Shown: one piece after another, positions 7,978 to 64,000 of the stretch | How positions within the stretch are numbered: position 1 is the first letter of the stretch | Layout: every line of letters starts with the position of its first letter | NCBI RefSeq assembly: GCF_000428945.1 | Contig: NZ_AUAX01000003.1 | Location: 186,001 to 250,000 of the forward strand | DNA from: Hamadaea tsunoensis DSM 44101 | GTDB taxonomy: Bacteria > Actinomycetota > Actinomycetes > Mycobacteriales > Micromonosporaceae | Length of the DNA stretch: 64,000 bases | Direction: 5' to 3' | The notes under the pieces: model-generated | Seen by the model: the letters and a program-made list of their open reading frames with translations, nothing else | Databases searched by the model: none | Told to the model about the DNA's origin: nothing | Translations under genes and position numbers: made by a program

Positions 7978-8409
7978 GTGTTCGAGAATCTGAACGGGTG
8001 GGAGTTCTTCGCGCTCCTACTGCTCGCCCTGCTCATCTTCGGCGACAAGCTGCCCCAGGTCATCTCCGACGGCCTGCGCATGCTCCGCAACCTGCGCAAC
8101 ATGGCCCGCAACGCGACCGGTGACCTCAGCAAGGAACTCGGCACGGACATCAGCCTCGAAGACCTCAACCCGAAGAACTTCGTCCGCAAGCACCTCCTGA
8201 GCGAAGAGGACGAGGCCACGCTGCGTAAGCCGCTGGAAGGCCTGTTCAACGACGTCAAGAAGGACGTGCAGGGCATCGGCGAGGAGCTGAAGGCCACCGC
8301 CAAGAGCATGGACCACCGCGAGCCGATCGCGACGCCGGCCAAGCACACGCCGCTCCCGAGCGACCCCACGGCACCCCCCGCAGCATCCCGCTACATCGAC
8401 GCTACGTAG
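7978..8409 (+). CDS. tatB: Sec-independent translocase subunit TatB
   Basis: This 143-residue protein has an N-terminal membrane helix containing the hallmark FFALLLLALLIFGDKLPQ, where the short hinge GDKLP replaces the usual GPE/KLP. An amphipathic helix (ISDGLRMLRNLRNMARN) follows, then a charged, Pro-rich tail. TatB forms the twin-arginine substrate receptor with TatC. The GTG at 7978 follows GAGAGGCGACGAGA. Position after htrA and before convergent mrp matches the mycobacterial order. Partners tatA and tatC are not in the window. Confidence 0.9.
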   Translation: MFENLNGWEFFALLLLALLIFGDKLPQVISDGLRMLRNLRNMARNATGDLSKELGTDISLEDLNPKNFVRKHLLSEEDEATLRKPLEGLFNDVKKDVQGIGEELKATAKSMDHREPIATPAKHTPLPSDPTAPPAASRYIDAT

Positions 8410-8529
8410 TCGGTGGTCCATTCCACCGGTGGTCAAGTCCCCCGGTGGTTGCTGCCCCTGATGGGCGGGCTTCCCCCGCGGTGGTTGCTGGAAAGGTTAT
8501 TGCCCGTTCGCCCTTCGGGCGAGACGAAG

Positions 8530-8621
8530 GCACTCGGCCCTTATGCAACGTCCGGCAGTTCAAGATCCTCAAACGCTTCGCGCTTGCGGATCTTGAACTG
8601 CCGGACGTCGCGGCCGAGTGC
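8530..8621. terminator. Nested hairpin between tatB and mrp
   Basis: An outer 10-bp stem GCACTCGGCC (8530-8539) / GGCCGAGTGC (8612-8621) encloses a perfect 19-bp stem, GTCCGGCAGTTCAAGATCC (8550-8568) with its complement at 8588-8606. Its loop can pair further (CAAACGC / GCGCTTG around TTC). Upstream lies a smaller hairpin TCGCCC-TTC-GGGCGA near 8508. No T-run follows. The convergent position suggests a bidirectional terminator or a relic of an inverted repeat; the arms differ from the ~80-bp palindrome family. Confidence 0.6.
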
Positions 8622-8641
8622 GGGGTGGAGATGTGGGTGAT

Positions 8642-9793
8642 TTAGCGCTTGGCTGGGCTTAGGCCCAGGGGTTTGCCTACGAGCGACTCTCGGCGGACCG
8701 AGAGGCGGTCGGCTACCTTCTGCAGGGCTTGCGCGGCTGGGGCGTCCGGGTTGGCCAGGACGATCGGCGTGCCTTCGTCGCCGCCTTCGCGTACGCGGGT
8801 GTCCAGGGGGATCTGGCCCAGCAGCGGGACCTGGGCGCCGATCAGCTTGGTCAGGGACTCCGCCACGGTGGCGCCGCCGCCGGAGCCGAAGACCTCCATG
8901 CGGTCGCCGTTCGGCAGTTCGAGGTAGGACATGTTCTCGACGACGCCGATGACCCGCTGGTGCGTCTGCAGGGCGATGGCGCCGGCCCGCTCGGCCACTT
9001 CGGCGGCGGCCGTCTGCGGGGTGGTGACGACGAGGATCTCCGCGTTGGGCAGCAGCTGCGCGAGCGAGATCGCCACGTCGCCGGTGCCCGGCGGCAGGTC
9101 GAGCAGGAGGACGTCCAGGTCGCCCCAGTAGACGTCGGCGAGGAACTGCTGGAGGGCGCGGTGCAGCATCGGGCCGCGCCAGACGACGGCCGCGTTGCCG
9201 GCGGTGAACATGCCGATCGAGATGACCTTCACGCCGTGCGCCTGCGGCGGCATGATCATGTCTTCGACCTGGGTCGGGCGGCCTTCCGCGCCGAGCATGC
9301 GGGGCACCGAGTGGCCGTAGATGTCCGCGTCGATGACACCGACGCTCAGCCCCTTGGCTGCCAGCGCGGCGGCCAGGTTCACGGTCACGCTGGACTTGCC
9401 GACACCGCCCTTGCCGGACGCGACGGCGTACACCCGCGTACGCGAGCCGGGCTGGGCGAACGGGATGACCGGTTCGGCCGCCTGCGGGCCACGCAGCGTG
9501 CTCTGGAGCTTCTGGCGCTGCTCGGCGGACATCACCCCGAAGCCGATCTGCACCTCGTCGACGCCCGCCACCGCGCCGACCGCGGCCGTGATGTCGTCGC
9601 GCAGCTTGTCGCGCAAGGGGCAGCCGGCGACGGTCAGCAGGATCGCGACGCGTACCGTGCCGCCGTCTATCGCGACGGACTCGACCATGCCGAGATCGGT
9701 GATCGGCCGGCGGATCTCGGGATCGTTGACGGTGGCCAGAGCGGTGTTGATCGCATCGGCGAGCGTCGTGGCAGGCGCGGACATGATGCCCAT
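8642..9793 (-). CDS. mrp: Mrp/ApbC/NBP35-family iron-sulfur carrier ATPase
   Basis: This 383-residue protein combines an N-terminal MIP18/DUF59 domain (about 1-95) with a deviant Walker P-loop ATPase (GKGGVGKSS, about 129-137). It has the family stretch IDADIYGHSVPRMLG and the switch motif LLLDLPPGTGD. Family members transfer Fe-S clusters in the cytosol. The CxxC cluster-binding pair found in many homologues is not seen near the C-terminus, as in a subset of Mrp proteins. The start at 9793 has GGGGACGG upstream; an ATG at 9784 is an alternative. Confidence 0.92.
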   Translation of the reverse strand: MGIMSAPATTLADAINTALATVNDPEIRRPITDLGMVESVAIDGGTVRVAILLTVAGCPLRDKLRDDITAAVGAVAGVDEVQIGFGVMSAEQRQKLQSTLRGPQAAEPVIPFAQPGSRTRVYAVASGKGGVGKSSVTVNLAAALAAKGLSVGVIDADIYGHSVPRMLGAEGRPTQVEDMIMPPQAHGVKVISIGMFTAGNAAVVWRGPMLHRALQQFLADVYWGDLDVLLLDLPPGTGDVAISLAQLLPNAEILVVTTPQTAAAEVAERAGAIALQTHQRVIGVVENMSYLELPNGDRMEVFGSGGGATVAESLTKLIGAQVPLLGQIPLDTRVREGGDEGTPIVLANPDAPAAQALQKVADRLSVRRESLVGKPLGLSPAKR

Positions 9794-9854: not shown

Positions 9855-10340
9855 TCAGGGCAGGCTGCCTGCCTCGACGAGCCGGGCGAAGCGGCGCAGC
9901 GTCTGCTTGAAGGCCGTCTTCGAGCCGGGCCACAGCACCGGCCAGATCACCTTCCCGGCCGCGCCCGCCGGAAGTTGGAACCATTCGTGCCAGACCACCT
10001 GCGTACGCCCGCCCGCCATGGGAGTGCAGCGCAGCACGCCGGGGCCGCGAAGGATCTTGCCGCAGTGCATGACCCGCAGCTCATAGGGTGCGTCGATCCG
10101 CTCCACCCGCATCTCGTCGCGCAACTGCGCCGGTCCCGCGGCGGTGATCGCCTCGATCAGGCTGCCCTCGCCGCCGTCGCCCTCGACGATGCGTACCTTG
10201 GTCAGCGGGATCCATTCGCCTTGGCGTTCCCAGGCGAGGAACGCGGCGAAGACGCGCTCCGCCGGGGCGTTGACGATGACGGTCGCCGTCACCTCACCCG
10301 TCCCGGACCCCTGCGGGGGGACGGGCTCGGACGGGGTCAC
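9855..10340 (-). CDS. SRPBCC (START-like) family protein
   Basis: This 161-residue protein has the polyketide cyclase/START-like fold: an initial strand TATVIVNAPAERVFAAFLAWERQGEW, a curved sheet and the long C-terminal helix (KTAFKQTLRRFARLVEAG) that closes the ligand cavity. Such proteins bind hydrophobic ligands or are enzymes of varied function; the ligand cannot be told. The GTG start overlaps the stop of the upstream DivIVA-domain gene by 4 bp (GTGA), so the two are co-translated. Confidence 0.85.
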   Translation of the reverse strand: MTPSEPVPPQGSGTGEVTATVIVNAPAERVFAAFLAWERQGEWIPLTKVRIVEGDGGEGSLIEAITAAGPAQLRDEMRVERIDAPYELRVMHCGKILRGPGVLRCTPMAGGRTQVVWHEWFQLPAGAAGKVIWPVLWPGSKTAFKQTLRRFARLVEAGSLP

Positions 10341-16173: not shown

Positions 16174-18847
16174 TGCCGGTGTCGAACCGGGAGGCCAGGT
16201 CGGGCGCTTCGAGCTGCAGCGCGTAGGCCGCGGCCTCCTCCAGCGTCATCGCCGAGCCGCGCGCCCAGGCCGCGTCGAACGGCGCGTCGTCGAGGGCCGC
16301 GCGGCTCACGGCCTGCCGTGTGGCCCAGAAGGGATCGAAGATCCCGGGCCCGCGGCAGAGCCGGGCCTTGGCGGTGGCGGCGGCGCCGAACAGCACGGCG
16401 GCGGCCTCGTGGTCGCCGCCGAGCACGCACCGCGCGGCCATCGCGCTGACCGCGACGCACGCGCGGGAGTGGAAGCCGTAGGACATCCGCGAGCGCAGCG
16501 CGACCGACAGGTGGTCGTGCGCGGCCACGAGATCGTTGCGGCCCAGGGCCACCATGCCCAGCAGCAGGTCGACCGTACGCCGGCCGCGCTCGGCGGGCCG
16601 CAGCGCCTCGATCGGGCGGGCGGTGGCCAGCAGTTCGGCGGCCTGGTCGAAGGCGCCCCGCAGCCAGAGCAGTTCGGCCAGGTTGTAGACGGCGAACAGG
16701 GCGTCGGCGAGCACCTCGCGCGGGCCCGCCCAGGCGAGCAGGTCACGGCAGAGCTGCTCGGCCTCGGCCGCCTTGCCGAGCGCGACGAGCGGACCGGGCT
16801 GGCCGGCCAGGACGCGGGCCACGACGCCGGCGTCGGCGCTGCGGCGGGCGGCCCCCTCGGCCCGCTGGGCGAAACGGATCTCCTCAGCGGTCTCGCCGTC
16901 GGCGCAGGCGTGCATCGAATGGCCGTAGTACGCCAGGGCCAGCTCGGCGTCCGGCACCGCCTCGGGGCTCTCGGCGAGTCGTGAGTAGAGCCGGAAATGC
17001 CACAGCCGGCCTTCGCGGGCAAGACCCCGCTCGCGCCACCACTGGTCCAGCCCGGCCGCGATGCGCAGGCCCTCCCGCGCGCTGCCGCCGGTGACGCACC
17101 AGCGCAGGGCGGCCCGCAGTTCGGCGGCGAGCGGGTCGAGGGCGTACATGCTGAGGGTCACCGGGCGGTCGTCGCCGCCGCGCTCCACCCGGCGCAGGCT
17201 GTGCAGAGCCCATTGCAGGTGACGGTCGCGGGCGGCCCGCTCCTCGCCCTCGGCGGTCAGCCGCCGCGCGGCGAAGGCCCGGATCGGATCCAGCATCCGG
17301 TACTCCGAGCCCCCCGGCTCCCGGCTCACCTGCAGCAGCGACTTGTCCACCAGCGTCGCCAGCGCGTCGAGCGGGTCACCGTCCACCCACCACTCGACGG
17401 TCGGCAGGCTCACCGGCCCGGCGAACACCGACAGCCCGCGCAGCAGGCTCGAGGCCGCGGGCGACAGCGTCCGGTAGGACCACTCCACCGTCGCCTGCAG
17501 GGTCGCGTGCCGGCCGCTGGACTCGCCCAGCGCGGCCGCGGTCGCGTCCAGGGCGCCGAGCGGGTCGGGAGCCTTGCCGTCCAGCTCACTCTCCAGCCGG
17601 TCCGCCAGCTCCCCCGCCGACAGTACGCGCAGCCGCGCGGCCGCCAGCTCCAACGCCAGCGGGAGCCCGTCCAGCCGGGTCGCGACCCGGTTGAGGAAAC
17701 GGATCTCCTGCACGGCCGGGGCCCGGCCGCCCCGGGCCGCCGTGGTCCGCTCGATGAGCAGCTCCACGGCGTCGGCGTGGGCCGCGCCGGCGACCGGCTC
17801 CAGGCTCAGCGGCGGGATGCGCCAGACCACCTCGCCGGACAGCCCCAGCGGCTCCCGGCTGGTGGCGAGCACCGTGATGCCCTTGCCGGCCGTCAGCAGC
17901 TGGCTCAGCACCGCGCGTACGCCGACGAGCTGGGCCTCGCACGTGTCCAGGATGAGCAGCAGCCGGCGGGGCGCCACGTACTCGGCGAGCGTGTCGAGCA
18001 CCGGCTTGCCGGGCTCCGGCCGCTGGCCGAGGGTGCTCATGACAGTGAAGGCGACCAGGCCGGGATCGGTGATGGTGGCCAGGTCGACGAGCCACACACC
18101 GTCCGGATAGGACGAGGCGAGGTCGCCGGCCACCTCGACGGCCAGCCGGGTCTTGCCCGCACCGCCGGATCCCACCACGGTCACCAGCCGCTGCTGGTCG
18201 ACGAGGCGGATGAGCTCGGCCCGCTCCTGCGACCGGCCGACGAACGCCGTGATCGAGGCGGGCAGGTTGTGCGCCGGCGCCTCCGACGTACGCGGCCGCG
18301 GGAACACCCGGTTCAGGCCGGGCGCGACGAGCTGGAACAGCCGCTCGTGACCGTCGAAACCACGCAGCTTGTGCAGGCCCAGATCGAGCAGGTAGGACTC
18401 GTCCGGCAGGCTCTGCGCCCGGGCGGCGGTGGCGGCCGACAGCAGGATCTGCCCGCCGTGGGCGGCCTGCGCGACGCGGGCGGCCCGGTGCACCTCGGCG
18501 CTCGCGTACTCGCCGGCGTGCGGCTGGGCGTATCCGGTGTGGAGTCCCATGCGTACGCGGGGCGCGGCCTGTTCGCTCGGCCACTCGTGGGCGGCCAGGG
18601 CGCGCTGGCCCTCGGCGCACGCCGCGACGGCGGCCTCGGCGTCGGAGAACGCGAAGAAGTAGGAGTCGCCCTCGGTGAACAGCTCGGCACCGTCGGCGTC
18701 GACGAGCACGGACCGCAGCAATCGCCGGTGCTCCTCGAGCACCGGTCGGTAGCCGTTCCCGAGCATCTGCGCCAGCCGGGTGGACCCTTCGATGTCGGTG
18801 AAGAGAAAAGTCACCAGTCCGCTGGGCAGACGCCGTTCCGCAGTCAC
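16112..18847 (-). CDS. Class III nucleotide cyclase domain - ATPase regulator with TPR-like tail
   Basis: This 911-residue signalling protein has a class III cyclase domain (about 8-180; TFLFTDIEGSTRLA with the first metal Asp, then GDSYFFAFSDAEAA). An NB-ARC/AAA ATPase follows (Walker A VVGSGGAGKTRLA; LLLILDTCEA for Walker B), then a helical TPR-like region. No DNA-binding HTH is visible. In the transition-state motif the usual NRAAR reads HRAARV, so cyclase activity is uncertain. The GTG at 18847 follows GGAGG. Related mycobacterial cyclase-ATPase proteins exist; output is unknown. Confidence 0.85.
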   Translation of the reverse strand: MTAERRLPSGLVTFLFTDIEGSTRLAQMLGNGYRPVLEEHRRLLRSVLVDADGAELFTEGDSYFFAFSDAEAAVAACAEGQRALAAHEWPSEQAAPRVRMGLHTGYAQPHAGEYASAEVHRAARVAQAAHGGQILLSAATAARAQSLPDESYLLDLGLHKLRGFDGHERLFQLVAPGLNRVFPRPRTSEAPAHNLPASITAFVGRSQERAELIRLVDQQRLVTVVGSGGAGKTRLAVEVAGDLASSYPDGVWLVDLATITDPGLVAFTVMSTLGQRPEPGKPVLDTLAEYVAPRRLLLILDTCEAQLVGVRAVLSQLLTAGKGITVLATSREPLGLSGEVVWRIPPLSLEPVAGAAHADAVELLIERTTAARGGRAPAVQEIRFLNRVATRLDGLPLALELAAARLRVLSAGELADRLESELDGKAPDPLGALDATAAALGESSGRHATLQATVEWSYRTLSPAASSLLRGLSVFAGPVSLPTVEWWVDGDPLDALATLVDKSLLQVSREPGGSEYRMLDPIRAFAARRLTAEGEERAARDRHLQWALHSLRRVERGGDDRPVTLSMYALDPLAAELRAALRWCVTGGSAREGLRIAAGLDQWWRERGLAREGRLWHFRLYSRLAESPEAVPDAELALAYYGHSMHACADGETAEEIRFAQRAEGAARRSADAGVVARVLAGQPGPLVALGKAAEAEQLCRDLLAWAGPREVLADALFAVYNLAELLWLRGAFDQAAELLATARPIEALRPAERGRRTVDLLLGMVALGRNDLVAAHDHLSVALRSRMSYGFHSRACVAVSAMAARCVLGGDHEAAAVLFGAAATAKARLCRGPGIFDPFWATRQAVSRAALDDAPFDAAWARGSAMTLEEAAAYALQLEAPDLASRFDTGTTEYARPQRGPIPAPGVPAP

Positions 18848-19070
18848 GCTCAAAACCTCCGCCCCCCTGGAAGTCGGTTCATGCTTTCGCATCCGCCCCT
18901 GCTCGCGCATCGTCGAAACGGTCTGCAAATGATCCAACCAAGGTCCTAGCCAGGGTGAGTCCATCTCAGGAACAGAAACCACAGGTTTTACCGAAGTGAC
19001 AAAACGATGACCCCGACCCCCGGATGTGGCCCGAACGGCCAGACTCGGCCGGATAGGCAATACTCGACCG

Positions 19071-20501
19071 GTGAGCACCCCGAAGCCGCCCTCGGACGAA
19101 CCGGTGACCCCGTCGGAGACCACGCCCCCGCCCACCTCCGCGACCGTACCGGAACCCGCCGCCCCGAGGCGTACACGCCGCGGCACGTTCACCAACGGGG
19201 CCTGGGACGAGAACCCCGAGGGCCCGACGCTGGCGGCGATGACGGAGGACCGGCGCGGCCCAGGCAGACCCCCGCGTACGCCGGCCGCCGAGACGACCGC
19301 GCCGGTGCCGCCGGAGGCTCAGGTCGGCCCCGCTGAGCAGGCGCTCGGCGATCCGGCCGCCGCGAAGTCGGCGACGCCGGCGCAGCCCGCCGGGCAACCG
19401 GACGCCGTGGAAGTCGCACCGGTGGAAGTTGCCGCCGTGCAACCGTCGGCCGCCGAGCCGACGAGTGACCTACCCGGTTCGGCGGAAAAACCTGCCGCCG
19501 ATTCTGCCGCCGGTACGGATGCCCCCGAAGCCGCCCGGACTGCCCCGAAACACGCCGCCGAGACTCCGTCGGGCACCCCGAGACACGCCGCCGAGACCGC
19601 GTCGACGACACCGCGACTGCGCCCCGCCGCGGTCGGCCGGATAGTGAGCACGGCGGGCGGCACAGCCGTCCGGGCCGCCGCCTCCGGCAGCCGGACCGCC
19701 GTCCGGGCGGCCCGCCGCCCACCGGGCCGGCTGCTGCTGGGCGGTCTGCTGATCGCGGTGGTGGTCGGGCTGACCGTCGGCTTGGGCGGCTTCCTGGTGT
19801 CCAACAGCGACGCGAAATCGCGTACGCATGCGCAGGCGACCGAGTCGGCGGCCGCGCAGCCGTCCTCGACCGAGGGGGCGGGCCTGCCCAGCTTCAGCCC
19901 TCCGCCGACGGTGGCGGCCTCGCCGGTCGCGGCCAACGCCGGGCTGACCGGATGGGCCGAGCAGCTGGCGGTCAAAGTCGAGATCCCACCGGTCGCCCTG
20001 CGCGCCTACGCGTACGCCGAATGGGTGTTGGGCCAGCGCACGCCCACCTGCAAGCTCTCGTGGACCACGATCGCGGCCATCGGCAAGATCGAATCGAACC
20101 ACGGCCGGGTGGGGGCCGCGACGCTGGGCTCGGACGGCCGGGTGCTGCCGCCGCTCGTGGGGCCGGCGCTGGACGGCAAGGGCGGCCGGGCCAAGGTCAC
20201 CGACACCGACGCGGGCGCGCTCGACGACGACCGGGCCTGGGACCACACCGTCGGCCCGATGCAGTTCCTGCCGGCGACCTGGCGTTCCTACGCCGTGGAT
20301 GCGGACGGTGACGGTATCGTGGACCCGAACGACATCGACGACGCCGCGCTCGCGGCGGCCAACAAGCTCTGCGAGTCGGGCAAGGATCTGACCCAGCCTG
20401 CGAATTGGAGCGCGGCCATCAAGACATTTCCCGATCTGACGGCCAAGGTGCAGCAGGTGTTCGACGCCGCCAACACCTACGGCCAGAAGAGCCGTGCGTG
20501 A
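19071..20501 (+). CDS. Membrane-anchored lytic murein transglycosylase
   Basis: This protein of about 476 residues has a long Pro/Ala/Thr-rich cytoplasmic N-terminus, one membrane helix (about 225-247, LLLGGLLIAVVVGLTVGLGG) and an extracellular lysozyme-like domain (about 310-470). The catalytic Glu is in IGKIESNHGRVG, followed by the fold markers DHTVGPMQFLPATWRSYAVDADGDG and DDAALAAANKLCESG. It should cleave peptidoglycan glycan chains. The GTG at 19071 is the likely start; an ATG 45 bp upstream is possible. It is divergent from the cyclase gene. Confidence 0.88.
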   Translation: MSTPKPPSDEPVTPSETTPPPTSATVPEPAAPRRTRRGTFTNGAWDENPEGPTLAAMTEDRRGPGRPPRTPAAETTAPVPPEAQVGPAEQALGDPAAAKSATPAQPAGQPDAVEVAPVEVAAVQPSAAEPTSDLPGSAEKPAADSAAGTDAPEAARTAPKHAAETPSGTPRHAAETASTTPRLRPAAVGRIVSTAGGTAVRAAASGSRTAVRAARRPPGRLLLGGLLIAVVVGLTVGLGGFLVSNSDAKSRTHAQATESAAAQPSSTEGAGLPSFSPPPTVAASPVAANAGLTGWAEQLAVKVEIPPVALRAYAYAEWVLGQRTPTCKLSWTTIAAIGKIESNHGRVGAATLGSDGRVLPPLVGPALDGKGGRAKVTDTDAGALDDDRAWDHTVGPMQFLPATWRSYAVDADGDGIVDPNDIDDAALAAANKLCESGKDLTQPANWSAAIKTFPDLTAKVQQVFDAANTYGQKSRA

Positions 20502-55833: not shown

Positions 55834-58398
55834 TCACACTGGTTCGCGACTGTCCCGCAGGTAGGCGACCAGCTCGACTCGATTGCGTACGCCGAGCTTC
55901 CGATAGATGTTCGCCAGGTGGGTTTCGACCGTTCGCTCACCGATGACGAGTTGTTCGGCGATCTCCTTGGCCGATGCCCCACCGGCCGCCAGCGCCAGCA
56001 CTTCCTGCTCCCGCCGGGTCAGCCCCTGACCGTCCGGCTGCGCGTCGCGGTCGGCCAGCGCGATCAGCCCGGTCAGGCCCCGCTCGGCCGCCAGCGACCG
56101 GGCCGCCTTCAGCTCCTGCGCCGCCGCCGGGCCGTCGCCACCCGCCGCGAGCAGCTGGGCGCGGGTCATCCTGACCCAGGCGGACCAGGGCGTACCCCCG
56201 GCGATCCGGCCCGCGTCGGTCAGCGCCCGCGCCGCGCCCGCCCGGTCACCGGCCGCCAGCAGCAGCCGCGCGCGGGTCAGCTCCGTCGGCCCGCCGTTCG
56301 CCGCCGCCGCGCCGGCCACGATCCACTTCCCCGCGTACGCCGAGAGCACCGCTGCCATCCGCGCAGCCAGGTCGGCCGGCGGTTGGGCCGCGGCGGCCAG
56401 CGCGAGCGTCCAGGGATCGGGTTCGGCGGGCAACTCGGCCAGGAGCGCGCCGGCGAGGTCGTCGAGGCCCGACGACCGGGCTGCCCACGCGGTCGCGGCC
56501 GTCGTCCAGTCCCGAGGCGGCAGATCGCGCAGGCGGTCGCCGAGGTCGCCGGGTTCGCCGACGACGAGCCGCAGACCGGTGAGGGCGGCGATCTCGTCCC
56601 AGCTCTCGCCGAGATCTTCGCCGGTCCCGGCGCGGCCCGCGAGGAGCGCGCGATGCGTACGGAGGACGGGATCGTCGCCGGCCTCGGCCAGGTGATGGTC
56701 GGCGGTCGCCAGTTCCCCGTCGGCGAGCAGCCTCGCGGCCAGTACGCGGTGCGCCCGTCCGGCCAGCCCGTCGTCGTCCAGCGCGGTGGCTTCGCGGACG
56801 GCCTGGCGCAGCCGGGGGATGTCGGCGTCCGGGTCGGCGAGCGCGGCTTCGGCGACCGCCCGGGGATCGCCGCACGCGACGGCCGCCTCCCGGGCCTGCG
56901 CCGCCAGGCTGGTCGCGGCCGGCGGGACCGATTCCAGCGCCAGCCGGGCCCGCAGTCGAGCCACTGTGGACAGATTTGCGGCCGGCCGTCCGTTGAGGAG
57001 GGCCAGCGCCTCGGTCAGCGCGGTCGCCCGCTCGGGATCGGTCGGCTCGGCGGTCGCCCCCAGCCCCGACCGCGGCCCGTACGCGAGCGCCGCCTCGGCG
57101 AGCAGCGCGTCGTCATTGACCTGGCGGGCCAGGCGCACGGCGGCGGCGAGCGCCTCGCGGGCGGCTTCCGGGCGGCCCACGGCGAACTGCGCGGCACCGA
57201 AGGCGACCAGCAGCCGGCCGAGCTGCCCCGGCGACCACTGCGCACGGGAGGCCAGCTCGACGGCGGTGGCGAACGCCTCGACCGCCTCGACCGGGCGCTC
57301 GGCGGCCCGCCCGGCGGCGACGACGGCCGCCACGGCGCGGTCCAGCCGCTCGGTGCCGCCCAGCGCGGACGCGGCCACCAGATGATGGGCCAGCTCGCCG
57401 ACCGTGGGAGCGCGGTCGCCCACCCGGGCGCCGACACGGATCAGGGCATCGGCCACCGCCTCATGGGCCGCCGCGGCCTCGGCCAGGCTCATGCCGTCGT
57501 AGAGGAGTTCGCGTACCAGGGCGGAGTCGAAGGACAGGACGCGATCGGCGACGGCGTGCAGCAGCCCGGCCGAGCGCGCCTCGTCGACCGCGCCCAGCGC
57601 CGGCTCGCCGCCGACCTCCTCCACCAGGGACAGATCGAACTCCCGGCCGATCACCGAGGCGAAGCGCAGGATGTCACGCGTACCCGGGGAGAGGGCGGCC
57701 AGCCGGGGCGCGACCGAAGCCGTCACGGTCTCCGGCCACCGCAGCGGTACGCGCCGCCGCCCGTCCTCGCCTTCGCGCAGCTGGCCGGCGACAGCCGAGA
57801 GCAACGTCGGGCTGCCGTCGGTACGCCGGGTCAACTGGGCGGCGACCCCGGCCGGCACCTCGTACGCGACCAGGCCGGACAGGAAGGCGGCCGCCTCGTC
57901 GCGGTCGAAACCGTTGAGCCACAAGCGATGTGCACCCGGTCCGGACGGCAGTTCGAGGGCGTCGGGCCGGAACACGGCCACCACGAGCACCGGCACGGCC
58001 GGCGGATGGTCGGCGAACTCGGCCAGCAGGGTCAGCGTCGCCGGATCGGCCCGGTGCAGGTCGTCGAGCGCGACGATCAGCGGCCCCGCCTCGGTGAACG
58101 CCGCCGTCAACGTCTCCTCGGCGGTCCACACGTCGTCGAATGTGGACCCGTCGCCGGGCGTGATCCCGGCGAGCACGCGCTTCCACGGCAACAGGGCCGG
58201 TGCCCCCGGCGTACGCGGTGCGCTGGCCCGCGCGTACGCCATGGTGGTGGTGCGGCGGCCGAACTCCTCGAGCAGGCTGCTGACCCCGAAGCCGGCGGCG
58301 GCGGTGACCAGGACGACCCGCAGCCGGCGGTCGGCGAGCACGGCACGGGCATGCGCGGCGAGCGTTCCCAGCTCGACCGCCCTCCCCACGAACCGCAT
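55834..58398 (-). CDS. LuxR-family (LAL-type) regulator with degenerate P-loop
   Basis: This 854-residue regulator has an N-terminal STAND/AAA-like domain (about 1-300), helical TPR-like repeats (about 300-780) and a C-terminal LuxR HTH (about 795-850, LTRREQEVLALAAGGASAKEI ... TVETHLANIYRKLGV). Walker B is intact (LIVALDDLHRAD) but the P-loop reads AAAGFGVSS (33-41), with Val39 in place of the essential Lys, so ATP hydrolysis is doubtful. It is divergent from the kinase/protease cluster and probably controls it, though regulator and targets are inferred. Confidence 0.88.
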   Translation of the reverse strand: MRFVGRAVELGTLAAHARAVLADRRLRVVLVTAAAGFGVSSLLEEFGRRTTTMAYARASAPRTPGAPALLPWKRVLAGITPGDGSTFDDVWTAEETLTAAFTEAGPLIVALDDLHRADPATLTLLAEFADHPPAVPVLVVAVFRPDALELPSGPGAHRLWLNGFDRDEAAAFLSGLVAYEVPAGVAAQLTRRTDGSPTLLSAVAGQLREGEDGRRRVPLRWPETVTASVAPRLAALSPGTRDILRFASVIGREFDLSLVEEVGGEPALGAVDEARSAGLLHAVADRVLSFDSALVRELLYDGMSLAEAAAAHEAVADALIRVGARVGDRAPTVGELAHHLVAASALGGTERLDRAVAAVVAAGRAAERPVEAVEAFATAVELASRAQWSPGQLGRLLVAFGAAQFAVGRPEAAREALAAAVRLARQVNDDALLAEAALAYGPRSGLGATAEPTDPERATALTEALALLNGRPAANLSTVARLRARLALESVPPAATSLAAQAREAAVACGDPRAVAEAALADPDADIPRLRQAVREATALDDDGLAGRAHRVLAARLLADGELATADHHLAEAGDDPVLRTHRALLAGRAGTGEDLGESWDEIAALTGLRLVVGEPGDLGDRLRDLPPRDWTTAATAWAARSSGLDDLAGALLAELPAEPDPWTLALAAAAQPPADLAARMAAVLSAYAGKWIVAGAAAANGGPTELTRARLLLAAGDRAGAARALTDAGRIAGGTPWSAWVRMTRAQLLAAGGDGPAAAQELKAARSLAAERGLTGLIALADRDAQPDGQGLTRREQEVLALAAGGASAKEIAEQLVIGERTVETHLANIYRKLGVRNRVELVAYLRDSREPV

Positions 58399-58625: not shown

Positions 58626-60587
58626 ATGTCCCAGTTCCGCGATGTGATCGCGCGCATGGCGGTGGACGCGGAGTTCGCTCGGCACGCTCGATCTCACCCC
58701 GACCAGGTGGCCGGCGAGTACGGCCTGACCTTCGACGAGACCGAGAAGCTGCGCGGACTGGCCGACGCCTCCGCCGTCAGCGGGCCCACGGCGCTCGGCG
58801 TGCGCCTCTCCAAGAGCGGTATCACGACCGGCGGCCTCGCCACGGCCCTGACCTCCGGTCACGACCTGCCCCACCTCGACCTGCCCGCGCACGGCGACGG
58901 CGGCGGTACGCCGGACGCCGGGCACGACCCGGCGATCATCGCGGTTCTGCACCCCGGCGACGTCCAGCACGACGGCGGCGGCCACCCGGCCCCGCCCGGC
59001 GGCGGCGACCACAGCGGTACGCCGGACCTGCACGGTGCGAAGAGCCTGCTCGAGATCGGACCGAAGCAGGACGACCCGGTCGGCCCCCCGCCGCCTCCGC
59101 CCGACCTGCCGGTCGGTGACCTGACGCCGATGAACCTGCACCTCGGCGGCGACGGCGGGCACACCGGCCCGATCGCCCCGCACCTGCACCTGCCGACCGG
59201 CGGGCACTCCGACCCGCCCGGCGGCGGTTCCGGTGACGGCCCGGCCGATCCCCAGGAACTGGCCACGCTGCCGCCGGACGGCATCGGGCACCACCTTCCC
59301 GATGGCCCGATCACGCCCGGCCAGCCGATCCATCTCCTGCCCGACCTCGGCATCGAGGGCATCCTCGAACCGGGCGGACACGGTGGTGACGGCGGCGGTG
59401 GCGGCGGGTCCGCTCCGGACCTCGGCGGCCTGCCGCTGGGCGACAACGACCACGACGGCATCCTCAACATGTTCGACCCCACGCCGGACGGCGACCCGAC
59501 CCCGCTGCCGGCCCCGCACATCGACCCGAGCCTGCTGGGCGACCTCGGCGACCTGCACCTGCACCCGCTGCCCACGGGCGACGGCGGCGGCAGCGAGCCC
59601 GTGATCCCGCACTTCCCGGGCGGTCTCGGCGACCTGGGCGATCTCGGCCTGCCCCACCTGCCCGGCGGCGAAGGCGATGCGGGCGGCGGCGCCGGTGGCG
59701 GCTCGGGCGACCCCGGCCTGCCGGACCTGGGCGGGCTGCTCGGCGACAGCGACCACGACGGGATCCCGAACTATCTGGACCCGACGCCGAACGGCGACAC
59801 CCCGCCGCCCGGTGACGGCGGAGCCGGCCTGCCCGACTTCGGCGGCCTGTTCGGCGACAACGACCACGACGGGATCCCGAACTTCCTGGACCCGACGCCG
59901 AACGGCGACCCGCACCCGCACCCGATCTTCCCCGGCGACCTGCACCTCCCGCCGGACCTGGTCCTCGACCCCGGCACGGGCGTCGGACACCCGCACTTCC
60001 CGATCGACCCCGGATCGATCCACTTCCCGCCCGGCGTCCTCGACCCGGGTACCGGGCCGACCGACGGCGGCGGTGTCATCGTCGACCCGGTGCACCCGGG
60101 CGGCGACGGGCCGATCCTCGGCGACCCGCCGGTACTCGGCGACCCCGGCCACGACGGCGGGCACGCCGACCCGACGCCCACCGACACGGCGCCGCCTTCG
60201 GACGGCCCCTCGCCGGCACCCGGCTCGGATTCCGGCGGCGGCTCGTCGCACGGCTCGGACTCGCACGGCTCGGCCCACTCCGACACCAGCTCGACCGGTG
60301 GTGGCGGCGACCAGCCCGTCGCGACCGATGACGGCCAGGGCGACGGGGACGCGGCCGCGGCCGACGCCGCCGCCGCGACGCACGCTCCGGTCGCGGACGC
60401 GGTGGACCCGGCCAACGCGCCGGCGCCCGGTAACATCCCGGCGGCTCCCGACGGCGGTATCTCCGGCGAGGAACTGGCGATCGGCGCGGCCGGTCTCGGC
60501 GTCGGCGTGATCGCCGGCGGCGTGGCGGGCGGGGTCGCCGGCGCGGCGGCCGGCAAGAAGAACCAGTCCGGCCAGCCCAACGCGTAA
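58626..60587 (+). CDS. Leader-like domain protein with TSP3-type calcium repeats and C-terminal helix
   Basis: This is a 653-residue protein without a signal peptide. Residues 1-65 (MSQFRDVIARMAVDAEFARH ... EYGLTFDETEKLRGLADAS) resemble LigA-like/NHLP-type RiPP leader helices. The body is Gly/Pro/Asp/His-rich and holds three repeats DNDHDGIxNxxDPTPxGD at residues 273, 374 and 411, calcium-binding thrombospondin type-3 style. A small-residue hydrophobic helix (about 615-643) ends with KKNQSGQPNA. It may be a precursor processed by the M50 protease encoded next. AAGGAAC precedes the ATG. Function is unknown. Confidence 0.75.
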   Translation: MSQFRDVIARMAVDAEFARHARSHPDQVAGEYGLTFDETEKLRGLADASAVSGPTALGVRLSKSGITTGGLATALTSGHDLPHLDLPAHGDGGGTPDAGHDPAIIAVLHPGDVQHDGGGHPAPPGGGDHSGTPDLHGAKSLLEIGPKQDDPVGPPPPPPDLPVGDLTPMNLHLGGDGGHTGPIAPHLHLPTGGHSDPPGGGSGDGPADPQELATLPPDGIGHHLPDGPITPGQPIHLLPDLGIEGILEPGGHGGDGGGGGGSAPDLGGLPLGDNDHDGILNMFDPTPDGDPTPLPAPHIDPSLLGDLGDLHLHPLPTGDGGGSEPVIPHFPGGLGDLGDLGLPHLPGGEGDAGGGAGGGSGDPGLPDLGGLLGDSDHDGIPNYLDPTPNGDTPPPGDGGAGLPDFGGLFGDNDHDGIPNFLDPTPNGDPHPHPIFPGDLHLPPDLVLDPGTGVGHPHFPIDPGSIHFPPGVLDPGTGPTDGGGVIVDPVHPGGDGPILGDPPVLGDPGHDGGHADPTPTDTAPPSDGPSPAPGSDSGGGSSHGSDSHGSAHSDTSSTGGGGDQPVATDDGQGDGDAAAADAAAATHAPVADAVDPANAPAPGNIPAAPDGGISGEELAIGAAGLGVGVIAGGVAGGVAGAAAGKKNQSGQPNA

Positions 60588-60640
60588 CCGCACCGACGTT
60601 CGATCCAGCAAGACCCAGGCATCACCGAAGGCCGGGTGCA

Positions 60641-60708
60641 GCGGAGGGGGGACCTCCGCCCGCAGACGCCGGTCGGGGCCGAGTTCCCCCGTGCTCGCCC
60701 CGACCGGC
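60641..60708 (+). promoter_or_regulatory. Two hairpins in the leader before the M50 gene
   Basis: GCGGAGG (60641-60647) pairs with CCTCCGC (60653-60659), and GCCGGTCGGGGC (60668-60679) pairs with GCCCCGACCGGC (60697-60708) around a 17-nt loop. They fill the first part of the 226-bp gap after the leader-protein gene. No T-run follows, so they may be an attenuator or RNA-processing element rather than a simple terminator. Confidence 0.45.
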
Positions 60709-60730
60709 CCGGCCGGACCGCTTCTCAGCG

Positions 60731-60798
60731 CAACAGCCGGCTTTCACAGCAACAGCCGGCCTTCAGAGCAACAGCCAGCCTTCAGAGCAACAGCCAGA
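60731..60798 (+). repeat. 19-bp tandem repeat upstream of the M50 gene
   Basis: Three full units begin at 60731, 60750 and 60769 (CAACAGCCGGCTTTCACAG, CAACAGCCGGCCTTCAGAG, CAACAGCCAGCCTTCAGAG), followed by a partial fourth at 60788. The array runs up to the ribosome site of the M50 gene and is less GC-rich than its surroundings. It has no spacer structure and is not a CRISPR. Confidence 0.85.
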
Positions 60799-60813
60799 AA
60801 GGGCCGCCCCGCC

Positions 60814-62556
60814 ATGCTCTGCCACGCCTGCCACGTGCACCTGCGCCGGGACTACCCCTACTGCCTCCACTGTGGAACTCTCCGCAAGGGCGCGCAGGTC
60901 GCCGAGTTCGCCGCCCCCGAGCTGCGGTACGCCGGCCAGGCGTACCCGCTGGTGAAGCCGGTCACCACGGTGGGGCGTACCAGCGACAACGACCTGATCC
61001 TCGACGACGCGAGCGTGTCCCGGCGGCATGCCCGGATCACGCGTACGCCGGACGGCTTCCTGCTCGAAGACCTCGACTCGTTCAACGGCACCACGGTCGG
61101 CGGACGGCTGCTGCACGGCGACCGGGCCGCCCTGAACGACGAGACCGAACTGGTCTTCGGCGACGTCGCCGTACGCTTCGCCCAGCCGCGCAGCGCCGCC
61201 ATCGGCTCGAAGACGATGGTCAAGGGCGCCGAGCAGACGATGCTCGCGGTCGGGGGCAAGCCGCCGGAGCAGGCAGCCACCGCCACCGAGCCGCTGTCGG
61301 CCGTCCCCCGCCGCCGGTCGGGCTGGGCGCTGAAGCAGGTGCCCGGCGGCCGCGAAGCCGAATGGGTGCTGAGCAATACGCGTACCGGGATGTATCTGCA
61401 GCTCGACGAGCGCGACGTGTTCATCTGGAACAGCCTCGACGGCGTCAACTCCGTCCGCGACCTGCTGTTCCTCTACGCCGACAAGTTCGGCGAGCTGGCC
61501 CTGCCGCGGATCGAGCGCACGCTGCGGACCTTCGCGGCCATCCAGCTCGTCCGGGGCCTTCCCGGCCAGCGCGATCCGCAGAAGCAGAACCTGCTCAAGC
61601 GGGCCGGCCAGGCGGTCTTCCGAGGACTGCTGCGGATGGAGCTGTCGATCCGAGGCGTCGACGGCCTGTTCGGCCGCATGTACGCCGCCTTCGGGTGGCG
61701 CTTCTTCACGCGTACGGGCGTCTTCCTGCTGTGGGCCCTGGTGATCGGCGGCCTGTACGCCTTCTTCGTGGCGAAGGCCCACCAGAAGCTGTTCGCCCTC
61801 GGCGGCGCCGGCTGGGTCGGCGCGGTGATCGTGGCGGCGGTGTGCCTGCTGGCGCTGGCGATCCACGAGTCCGCGCACGCGCTCGCGGTGAAATCCTACG
61901 GCCGCAAGGTGACCCGGGGCGGATTCATGCTCATGATGGGCATGCCGTTCGCCTTCGTCGACACCTCCGACATGTGGTTCGGTACGCGCTGGTCCCGCGT
62001 GGTCGTCACCCTCTCCGGTCCACTCTCGACGGCCGGGGTGGCGGGGGCGGCCGCGCTCGTGGCAGCTTATGTGCCGAATCCCATCGTGGCTGGGATCGGT
62101 TTCCACGTGGCGTTCGCCCTCTACCTGAACACCCTCTACAACTTGAACCCGTTGATGCCGGTCGACGGGTATCAGGCCCTCTCCGACGCGCTGCGGATGC
62201 CGCGGCTGCGCGAGGAGGCCTCCGCGTACTTCACGAAGGGCTTCTGGAAAGATCTGCGCACCGGGAAGCGGCCGGGACTGCGGCAGTGGGGCATGGCGGC
62301 CTACGGCATGCTCGCGGTGCTGGGCATGGTCGGCTTCCTGGCCATGGGGGCGTTCAGCTGGCGCAACCGGCTGAGCGGATTGACCGCACAATATCTCCCA
62401 CACGGGTACGCGATCCCGGTGGTGATCGTCGGTATCGGCATCATCATGTTCCCGATCTGGTACCGGCTGTACAAGAAAGTGTCCGCAGTGGTCCAGCGAA
62501 TGCTGGCGGCGCGTTCCCGTGAACGCGCCGGGCTTGGGGAGGCGACGACCGCATGA
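60814..62556 (+). CDS. Zinc-ribbon/FHA/PqqD-like/M50 membrane metalloprotease fusion
   Basis: This is a 580-residue protein. Residues 1-25 are a zinc ribbon (C3xxC6, C17xxC20). The FHA domain (about 45-130) has Gly54-Arg55, SRRH (69-72) and Asn91-Gly92. A PqqD-like winged helix (about 170-250, YLQLDERDVFIWNSLDG) is the RiPP recognition fold. An M50 membrane protease follows with His351-Glu352 and His355 (HESAH) and the distal NPLMPVDG (Asn445-Asp451) zinc ligand. About six membrane helices are predicted. It overlaps the kinase gene by ATGA, so its FHA domain may bind kinase-phosphorylated partners. No exact known match. Confidence 0.8.
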   Translation: MLCHACHVHLRRDYPYCLHCGTLRKGAQVAEFAAPELRYAGQAYPLVKPVTTVGRTSDNDLILDDASVSRRHARITRTPDGFLLEDLDSFNGTTVGGRLLHGDRAALNDETELVFGDVAVRFAQPRSAAIGSKTMVKGAEQTMLAVGGKPPEQAATATEPLSAVPRRRSGWALKQVPGGREAEWVLSNTRTGMYLQLDERDVFIWNSLDGVNSVRDLLFLYADKFGELALPRIERTLRTFAAIQLVRGLPGQRDPQKQNLLKRAGQAVFRGLLRMELSIRGVDGLFGRMYAAFGWRFFTRTGVFLLWALVIGGLYAFFVAKAHQKLFALGGAGWVGAVIVAAVCLLALAIHESAHALAVKSYGRKVTRGGFMLMMGMPFAFVDTSDMWFGTRWSRVVVTLSGPLSTAGVAGAAALVAAYVPNPIVAGIGFHVAFALYLNTLYNLNPLMPVDGYQALSDALRMPRLREEASAYFTKGFWKDLRTGKRPGLRQWGMAAYGMLAVLGMVGFLAMGAFSWRNRLSGLTAQYLPHGYAIPVVIVGIGIIMFPIWYRLYKKVSAVVQRMLAARSRERAGLGEATTA

Positions 62557-64000
62557 GTGGCTGGTCCGTACCGGGATACAGCGAGGTCACCGAACTCGGC
62601 CGGGGGGCGTCCGGCCGGGTCGTGCTGGCGACGCACGACAGCACCGGCGTACCGGTGGCGGTCAAGTACCTGGCCGACGAGTTGAAGACCGACGAGCAGT
62701 TCCTGCGCGAGTTCCGCGCCGAGGCCCGCATCCTGGCCGAGGTCGACGACCCGAACGTCAGCAAGCTCTACGAGTACATCGAGGAGCCCGGCGGCGCCGC
62801 GATCGTCATGGAGCTGGTCAACGGCGTCGCACTGCGCAAGATGCTGCGCGAGCAGGGCCCGACCGAACCCGAGGCGGCCCTCGTCGTCCTCAAGGGATCG
62901 CTGCTCGGCCTGGCCGCGGCCCACCGCCACGGCGTCGTGCACCGCGACTACAAGCCGGAGAACGTCCTCGTCGACGGCGAAGGCCGCAGCAAGCTCGCCG
63001 ACTTCGGCATCGCGGTGCGCGCGGGGCGTACCGGCCCGCTCGCCGGCACCCCGAGCTACATGGCGCCCGAGCAGTGGGCGGGCGGCCCGGCCACCCTCCA
63101 GACCGACATCTACGCCGCGACGGCCACCTTCTACGAGTGCCTCACCGGCGCCCCGCCCTTCCGCGCCCCCGGCGACCTGGCCCTGCTGCGCCGCCAGCAC
63201 GAGTCCGCACCCATCCCGGTCGACAACGTCCCCGAAGGCGTACGCGGAATCCTGCGCCGCGGTCTCGCCAAGGACCCCGGCCAGCGCCCGTCCGACGCCG
63301 CGACCTTCGTCCGCGAACTCGACGCGGTCGCGGGCGGCGCGTACGGCGCGGACTGGGAGGAGAACGGCAAGAAGAAGCTCGCCCGCCGGGCCCTGCTGCT
63401 CGCGGCGCTCTTCCCGCTCGCGCTGGCGTCCCTGTCGGGCACGGCGGTGGCCAACACGGGCTTCGGCTCGGGGTTCAGCCGCCTGTCGAGCGGCGTGAAG
63501 AAGGCACTGCTCGCCGGGACGACGACGGTCATCCTGGTCGGCGGCTCGGTCGGCGGATGCGTGGCGTTCAAGCCGTCCAACGCGGCGGACAACACCGCCC
63601 TGCCGTCATCATCGCCGTCGGTGGTGGTCGTGGAATCGCCGTCGGACTCGCCGTCCCCGCTGCCCTCGGACTCTCCGTCGGCGGCTCCTTCAGCGTCGAC
63701 TTCCCCATCGGCAGCGCCCTCGGCGTCACCGAAGAAGTCGCCCAAGGCCTCCCCCAAAGCCTCCCCGAAGACGAGCCCGTCGCCTTCGCCCAGCCCCGCC
63801 TGTACGCCGAGCGGCCGGATCACCGACACCGCAGGAACCGGGACGATCTCCGTCTACTGGGGACTCGCGTCCTGTGCGGCCGGAACGGTCCGGGTGCGGG
63901 TCTGTGGAATCCAGGTCGACAAGGCGGGCACGGCGTACGGAACGGCGACCTGCGGGAGCTGGGGTTCCTTCACCGTCCCCGCCGGCGCCTATTCCAGCAA
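62553..64000 (+). CDS. Ser/Thr protein kinase (PknB-like), 3' truncated by window
   Basis: The frame runs to the window end, giving at least 482 residues. The kinase domain (about 8-265) has the Gly-rich loop ELGRGASGRVV, Lys38 (AVKYL), catalytic HRDYKPEN (His130, Asp132; Tyr at the usual Leu) and DFG Asp150, with activation segment GTPSYMAPEQW. Two hydrophobic stretches follow (about 277-295 and 320-343), then a Ser/Pro/Lys-rich linker (SPSP, KASPK repeats) and a beta-rich C-terminal domain with cysteines (CTPSG, CAAGTV, RVCGI). It is translationally coupled to the FHA/M50 gene and is its probable partner. Confidence 0.88.
   Translation, partial: MSGWSVPGYSEVTELGRGASGRVVLATHDSTGVPVAVKYLADELKTDEQFLREFRAEARILAEVDDPNVSKLYEYIEEPGGAAIVMELVNGVALRKMLREQGPTEPEAALVVLKGSLLGLAAAHRHGVVHRDYKPENVLVDGEGRSKLADFGIAVRAGRTGPLAGTPSYMAPEQWAGGPATLQTDIYAATATFYECLTGAPPFRAPGDLALLRRQHESAPIPVDNVPEGVRGILRRGLAKDPGQRPSDAATFVRELDAVAGGAYGADWEENGKKKLARRALLLAALFPLALASLSGTAVANTGFGSGFSRLSSGVKKALLAGTTTVILVGGSVGGCVAFKPSNAADNTALPSSSPSVVVVESPSDSPSPLPSDSPSAAPSASTSPSAAPSASPKKSPKASPKASPKTSPSPSPSPACTPSGRITDTAGTGTISVYWGLASCAAGTVRVRVCGIQVDKAGTAYGTATCGSWGSFTVPAGAYSS

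Follow-up and report, generated by a model that had tools for sequence, protein, structure and literature searches.

Three adjacent forward-strand genes at the end of a 64,000-nucleotide stretch of the Hamadaea tsunoensis DSM 44101 genome (contig NZ_AUAX01000003.1, positions 186,001 to 250,000; here called the window) on balance probably encode a phosphorylation-regulated, leader-directed maturation system. The first gene (58626..60587, plus strand, ATG at 58626) encodes a leader-bearing substrate protein of 653 amino acids (aa), LEAD. The second (60814..62556, plus strand, ATG at 60814) encodes a 580-aa membrane protease, FPM, in which a zinc ribbon, an FHA domain and a PqqD-like recognition domain (RRE) for ribosomally synthesized and post-translationally modified peptides (RiPPs) precede an M50 domain of the site-2 protease type. 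The third encodes a Ser/Thr kinase, KIN (Pkinase profile 8.4e-46), whose ATG at 62553 lies within an ATGA overlap with the protease gene. A first-pass annotation of the window had claimed such a trio, overlap included, and all of it is present, with the correction that the 526-aa kinase frame (62553..64000, plus strand) runs beyond the window edge to 64133, which is position 10133 of the window's own locus, L001 (L and G numbers label loci and genomes). To that annotation we add a pseudokinase-like partner, an R-x-S motif and the enzyme passengers of distant relatives.

Leader protein and passenger

LEAD opens with an NHLP/Os1348-like leader domain (residues 1-66, 58626..58823, plus strand), for which the structure model (mean pLDDT 73) predicts helices at residues 3-13, 15-23, 25-32 and 36-51, followed by a disordered motif. 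The NCBIfam profile NF038399 matches it at 2e-5 and 24.6 bits, below the cut-off of 40, and the alignment reaches position 53 of 63 in the window copy; in Streptomyces and Chloroflexota copies it extends through to the end of the profile, where the R-x-S motif lies, and the relatives L168 (41.0 bits) and L111 (56.9 bits) score above the cut-off. The solved structure of Os1348 (PDB 6lk7) was matched with an E value of 0.0011, at rank 2 behind a repeat protein. Residues 1-66 are 74-83% identical to those of four relatives, and the central passenger is 10-47% identical. Because the leader is conserved while the passenger is not, and because the protease is related to the daptide protease discussed below, FPM may be read as a leader-directed protease. 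Near the end of the leader lies an R-L-S-K-S motif (residues 60-64, 58803..58817, plus strand), of which R60 and S62 are among the residues invariant in all 22 aligned leaders. This is a candidate recognition zone, and cleavage may occur there.

The calcium-type repeats and the C-terminal helix that the first-pass annotation ascribed to LEAD were both recovered. Three loops of the form D-x-D/N-x-D/N-G-x-x-D, at residues 273, 374 and 411 (span 59442..59882, plus strand), may bind calcium, and a hydrophobic, glycine-rich helix, seen as a hydrophobicity peak, occupies residues 617-635 (60474..60530, plus strand). Of the copies measured, 7/14 from the Micromonosporaceae part of the FHA-bearing branch and 3/5 from a branch without FHA have calcium-type loops. 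The C-terminal peak recurs in 13/14 Micromonosporaceae copies of the FHA branch; the three Streptomyces, two Actinomycetospora and four Chloroflexota copies measured showed no comparable helix at their C-terminus. A hydrophobic N-terminal segment is absent from LEAD and from every other leader protein measured in the FHA branch; the FHA-less-branch copies L061, L063 and L067 are more hydrophobic at this end.

Domains of the protease

The zinc-ribbon-like CxxC...CxxC motif of FPM (residues 3-20, 60820..60873, plus strand) consists of C3, C6, C17 and C20, which are invariant in 21/21 copies. The FHA domain (residues 51-116, 60964..61161, plus strand) is matched at 3.7e-16, and profile, fold and ligand residues all fit. 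The M50 active site HExxH (H351, E352, H355; 61864..61878, plus strand) is accompanied by a second motif, N443..P446..D451-G452, and all of these residues are invariant in 35/35 sequences. In the AlphaFold model (mean pLDDT 85.8), which has long membrane helices and a disordered linker at 127-157, HExxH sits in the helix 333-361, as expected of an M50 site-2 protease. The PqqD-like domain (residues 183-240, 61360..61533, plus strand) is modelled as three strands (171-176, 183-188, 194-197) followed by three helices (199-207, 214-225, 230-242), the order expected of a winged-helix RRE. NF041824, the profile of the daptide intramembrane metalloprotease, matches residues 180-525, a span that takes in the PqqD-like domain, at 2.4e-39 over profile positions 15-351 of 379.

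A 35-sequence protease profile was also searched against the PDB. Among solved FHA proteins it found EmbR at 4.4e-17. It further matched the site-2 protease MjS2P (3b4r) at 8.7e-5 over profile positions 336-460 and PqqD (3g2b) at 0.0087 over positions 160-234, which are weak support because designed beta-trefoils reach 1.7e-6 by chance. Of the fusion claimed in the first-pass annotation, the FHA and M50 calls are firm, and the PqqD-like call is less strongly supported, mainly by the daptide-protease profile. Both the M50 and the PqqD-like domain hold in family profiles, but the single-sequence Pfam scores of the window protease fall below the cut-offs for both (1.2e-3 for M50).

Kinase and linker threonine

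KIN has the VAxK lysine and the HRD and DFG motifs of a Hanks-type Ser/Thr kinase, and its K38, E57, H130-R131-D132, N137 and D150-F151-G152 are invariant in 15/15 copies. FHA proteins of the GarA/OdhI type are phosphothreonine switches with a Ser/Thr kinase partner. In FPM a predicted phosphosite for the FHA domain, Thr134 (61213..61215, plus strand), lies between FHA and RRE in the linker 127-157, which is modelled with low confidence. This position is threonine in every row of the main alignment that bears an FHA domain (26 rows), although the linker is otherwise largely variable; position 142 is threonine or serine in 25 of these rows, and the FHA ligand residues are invariant throughout (26/26). 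A threonine with hydrophobic followers stands at the equivalent site in the 11 distant-branch copies compared (nine by pattern, two by eye), a comparison that left out L192 and L200. In the distant copies L175 and L176 phosphothreonine binding is less sure, because by eye the ligand-site asparagine of the FHA domain is not kept. The likeliest gate would be a kinase-dependent phosphorylation of the linker that is read by the protease's own FHA domain.

Conservation of the gene set

We examined 44 loci, namely L001, 20 loci from the family and 23 of the 44 loci returned by a scan for relatives; of the other 21 scan loci, 14 were taken as family loci already counted and seven are the distant loci L105-L111. 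The 44 include 16 Streptomyces loci and 11 of a single genus, Catellatospora going by the named records, and L084 and L102 carry one species name. The full-length protease occurs in 21 genomes of a family sample of 300 (own genome included). It is sparse more widely, since it was found in 2/298 genomes of an order sample and 4/396 of a phylum sample, with the own genome counted in each. The nearest named relatives, in the relative scan, are Hamadaea metagenome-assembled genomes (MAGs) with a 79% identical protease; others belong to Catellatospora, Catelliglobosispora, Rhizocola, Longispora, Streptomyces and Actinomycetospora, with Catenulispora-type and Jatrophihabitans MAGs and one Chloroflexota MAG in addition.

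The leader gene lies directly 5' of the protease gene in 33 of the 38 assessable loci, six being cut by contig ends, and the kinase gene directly 3' in 36/44 (not in L054, L055, L089, L092, L095, L096, L098 and L103; in L092 it is 5' of the leader gene). In the L054 and L055 genomes a leader gene and a kinase gene are paired at a distance of about 19 and 30 kb from that of the protease, and L095 has a 92-aa leader-like gene at 8.6 kb. A fourth partner, a pseudokinase-like membrane protein, is encoded about 2 kb past KIN (L001:12146-13477, about window 66146-67477). By eye its catalytic motifs are gone, with HGA for HRD and SEVG for DFG, and it has a membrane segment and a tail that lies outside; this protein or its tail is found near the protease in 39/44 loci. 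The association of the gene set exceeds chance, and the co-occurrence that the first-pass annotation had proposed to check across Micromonosporaceae extends well beyond that family.

Relatives without an FHA domain

In the 300-genome family sample, a leader profile matched, at the thresholds used, all 21 genomes with this protease, a count that is partly circular in that 9 of the 21 had supplied sequences to the profile. It also matched 60 of 115 genomes that have only an FHA-less RRE-M50 relative, none of which had fed the profile, and 2 of 164 with neither; these two matches are weak, and among the 164 there are a few genomes whose M50 matches are weaker still. Fisher's test, as applied to these counts, takes no account of phylogeny. 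Where a leader match and the FHA-less relative share a contig (56 cases), the match invariably lies 3' on the strand of the relative, 2.0-4.5 kb from its matched part. The co-occurrence and these 56 cases suggest a broader partnership between RRE-M50 proteins and NHLP-type leaders.

Some of the relatives have cyclic-nucleotide (cNMP)-binding domains in place of FHA, two in L105 (6.7e-25), two N-terminal ones in L106 (2e-39) and one in L111 (1.2e-19), with a weak one in L168 (6e-5, below cut-off), which would fit a swappable regulatory input. In L111, an Elusimicrobia MAG, three tandem NHLP-type peptides of 65-67 aa with ends near R-I/V-S-K (L111:7472-8100 and 8256-9113) adjoin the cNMP-RRE-M50 protease and, by eye, a polyprenyl synthetase-like gene; in a profile search the first of them exceeds the cut-off of the Os1348 family. 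In the FHA-less branch (L061, L067, L168, L169) the leader gene is followed by a gene that by eye encodes an ABC-type ATP-binding protein, with one further gene between the two in L168.

Enzyme passengers in distant loci

Searches around two distant genomes, which gave 2/42 and 11/201 genomes, yielded 13 distant loci, of which six come from one genus; L191 and L192 have identical leaders in the part compared. The protease gene is followed by the leader-protein gene at -14 to +3 nucleotides in 13/13 loci, the leaders end in R-E-S/L-K/R-S-S, and the L200 protease lacks the FHA portion. Contractile-tail genes (tube gp19, VgrG-like, gp25-like and usually baseplate J) lie 5' in 11 of 12 assessable loci, with none 5' in L200. 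In most of L175, L176, L180, L191-L197 and L199 a zinc-ribbon/PASTA protein, matched by profile in L194, is encoded in between. A Ser/Thr kinase gene is found 3' of the leader gene in five of the eight loci for which genes were read there, and none among the genes read in L175, L180 and L195.

Peptidoglycan-hydrolase domains are present in the passengers of seven of the eight distant loci tested, as M23 in L175 and L180 and as CHAP and/or NlpC/P60 in L192, L193, L194, L195 and L199. None was found in the L200 passenger, and the test left out L196 and the contig-truncated L176, L191, L197 and L198. Such hydrolases normally act outside the cytoplasm, and in these proteins the leader occupies the place of a Sec signal. 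None of four distant leaders scored above the NF038399 cut-off; two of four, L194 (37.3) and L175 (36.2), passed the TIGR04509 cut-off of 34, and L191 and L199 fell below it.

Proposed mechanism and alternatives

In the mechanism that we favour, the substrate would carry an N-terminal NHLP/Os1348-type helical leader, which the RRE of the protease would bind so as to present the segment just past R-x-S-K/R-S to the intramembrane active site of M50, and the M50 domain would remove the leader or otherwise process the substrate. The transmembrane kinase would sense something extracellular and phosphorylate the protease linker at Thr134 (perhaps Thr142), and the FHA domain would bind that phosphothreonine, in cis or in a partner, switching leader access on or off in a GarA/OdhI-like manner. 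The passenger would be a large protein of low complexity, in many cases with calcium loops, and probably bound for the membrane or cell surface. The line of evidence that leads from the domain calls to a cross-phylum gene partnership is consistent in itself.

A number of observations weigh against it. Many of the loci come from close relatives. An adjacent leader gene is missing in L054, L055, L095, L096 and L098; three Catenulispora-type loci have no leader, kinase or pseudokinase beside the protease, and in the Chloroflexota locus a kinase gene next to it is missing. A reading of the neighbouring genes, with no search aimed at exporters, turned up none. With regard to the domains, the Pfam PqqD match of the window protease (2.9e-3, 18.3 bits) lies below the cut-off of 23.4, which L106 (33.2) and L111 (26.3 bits) pass, and no such match is listed for the distant L175 protease, L105 or L168; whole-model fold searches were filled by FHA matches and cover the FHA fold alone, and the structural matches to 3b4r and 3g2b have the chance background given above. 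Among the genome counts, besides the circularity already noted, 55 of the 115 genomes with an FHA-less relative gave no leader match, and the sole leader match listed for G087, whose locus is at a contig edge, is a short protein elsewhere.

The same genes could be read as an ordinary RiPP pathway, with the leader protein as precursor, the RRE-M50 protein as leader peptidase and the modification enzymes encoded elsewhere. This would suit the place of the leader in the NHLP clan of RiPP-type leaders, as well as the short leader proteins found elsewhere in the genomes, some with Cys-Asp/Asn-Gly-His repeats and adjoining a P450-like gene. However, the leader proteins measured, short in-trans ones excepted, span 175-3120 aa with no obvious short core, the distant branch has CHAP, NlpC/P60 and M23 enzymes as passengers, and no modification enzyme belongs to the conserved set, as far as the partly profile-searched flanking genes go, so that we regard a pathway of this kind as unlikely. 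Least probable, in our view, is regulated intramembrane proteolysis, in which the M50 domain would cut a membrane-tethered leader protein in its C-terminal helix and free a fragment, with the kinase and a LuxR-type regulator in the same circuit. A site-2-type protease, a divergent LuxR-type gene and the C-terminal helix of 13/14 Micromonosporaceae FHA-branch copies, which have no N-terminal signal, would agree with this, but the Streptomyces, Actinomycetospora and Chloroflexota copies keep the leader and R-x-S without a comparable C-terminal helix in those measured, and no LuxR-type match was found beside the six Streptomyces loci inspected.

A further alternative concerns only the gate. According to the first-pass annotation, the FHA domain would directly read a phosphothreonine on the leader or passenger, such that only phosphorylated substrate is recognised. 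FHA domain and kinase are adjacent and both intact, the passengers contain serine and threonine, and 12 of 13 distant-branch leaders retain a threonine immediately ahead of the motif, because of which leader phosphorylation is possible in that branch. No threonine is invariant across the 22 aligned leaders, though, and the invariant Thr134 is in the protease, which counts against this version and makes it distinctly improbable; protease self-gating or kinase docking fits better because Thr134 is invariant and leader threonine is not.

Beyond the window, we suggest tentatively, and with somewhat more doubt than conviction, that large proteins, and not peptide natural products alone, are sorted and matured by a general, signal-gated route built on NHLP-type leaders and RRE-M50 proteases, in which the sensor on the protease is interchangeable (FHA with a kinase, or cNMP-binding) and the leader-R-x-S passengers range from calcium-loop surface proteins to contractile-tail-linked peptidoglycan hydrolases. 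RiPP leaders and their recognition domains are familiar mainly from small peptide natural products. If the proposal is true, the same tag-and-grip logic, under kinase control, would process proteins as large as about 3000 residues, cell-wall enzymes included, and one system would bring together RiPP leaders, proteolysis within the membrane and Ser/Thr phosphorylation in bacteria.

Comparison with known systems

The nearest described function, as a system that would work in a similar way, is that of the daptide RRE-M50 leader peptidase. In the published daptide account (PMC10036551), an intramembrane peptidase removes the leader in an RRE-dependent manner and the precursor leaders have the motif ELExMEAP. 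Like FPM, this peptidase (MpaP/DapP, NF041824) has an RRE N-terminal to an intramembrane protease of the site-2 type; FPM differs in its added zinc ribbon and FHA domain, its partner kinase and its large substrates, those of the daptide system being, in the same account, short peptides with a modified C-terminal threonine. FPM is not a member of the daptide peptidases, because its score of 135.5 bits is far below the equivalog cut-off of 300 and because the ELExMEAP motif is, by eye, absent from LEAD. The epipeptide protease YydH/LiaK (NF058609), also an M50 maturation protease, is matched weakly (3.6e-6, 26.8 of 225 bits) and over the M50 part only. As for the leader, the NHLP-clan protein Os1348 (NF038399; PDB 6lk7; PMC7726476) shares the helical leader-like domain, but is itself an 85-aa protein, whereas the proteins that begin with the domain here measure 175-3120 aa and the window copy scores below the family cut-off.

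GarA/OdhI and EmbR, which act with Ser/Thr kinases, are the closest solved FHA structures, and differ in that the FHA domain is here fused to an RRE-protease in the membrane. In the threonine-phosphorylation pathway of type VI secretion, PpkA/Fha, a kinase and an FHA protein control a secretion machine, and the abstract of that account (PMC3953482) makes no mention of an RRE-M50 protease or leader; with the distant branch lying behind contractile-tail genes, this is a parallel in working only. No description of the gene set was found in the open-licence PMC literature, among the matches listed. FPM is related to known RRE-M50 leader peptidases, and the set of leader, FHA-bearing protease and kinase appears to be new.

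Neighbouring genes and other leader-type proteins

The divergent LuxR-type regulator claimed by the first-pass annotation is present as an open reading frame of 854 aa (55834..58398, minus strand), and in the majority of the 20 family loci a LuxR-type match likewise points away from the leader gene, a Micromonosporaceae association. Short imperfect direct repeats, by eye of the CAGAGCAACAGCCAG type, occupy window positions 60720-60800 in the gap between the leader and protease genes, just upstream of the protease start.

The Actinomycetospora leader proteins L089:592-9954 (3120 aa) and L092:3316-9966 (2216 aa) have an R-L-S-R-S motif and no Pfam domain at 0.01. The Chloroflexota MAG locus L103 has five leader-type proteins around the protease, one of which (17532-19760) matches the OCRE profile at 1e-19. 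The window's own genome also encodes, on another contig (G000:C23, L120:7397-7705), a leader-like protein of 102 aa that lacks the R-L-S-K-S motif. Catellatospora-type genomes (L152-L161) have an extra leader protein of 101-104 aa away from the protease, in which the motif is followed by a charged tail ending near PLGRWVGPG, and which is a possible substrate in trans. Short leader proteins far from the protease (G000:C25 L121:7384-7929, L163:3401-4312 and L164:4435-5211) have the R-L-S-K-S motif followed by C-D/N-G-H repeats, and their product is possibly metal-binding and RiPP-like. A P450-like gene comes directly after each of them (profile match in L163, the others by eye), and in L121 a gene follows that is, by eye, cysteine-rich and copper-protein-like.

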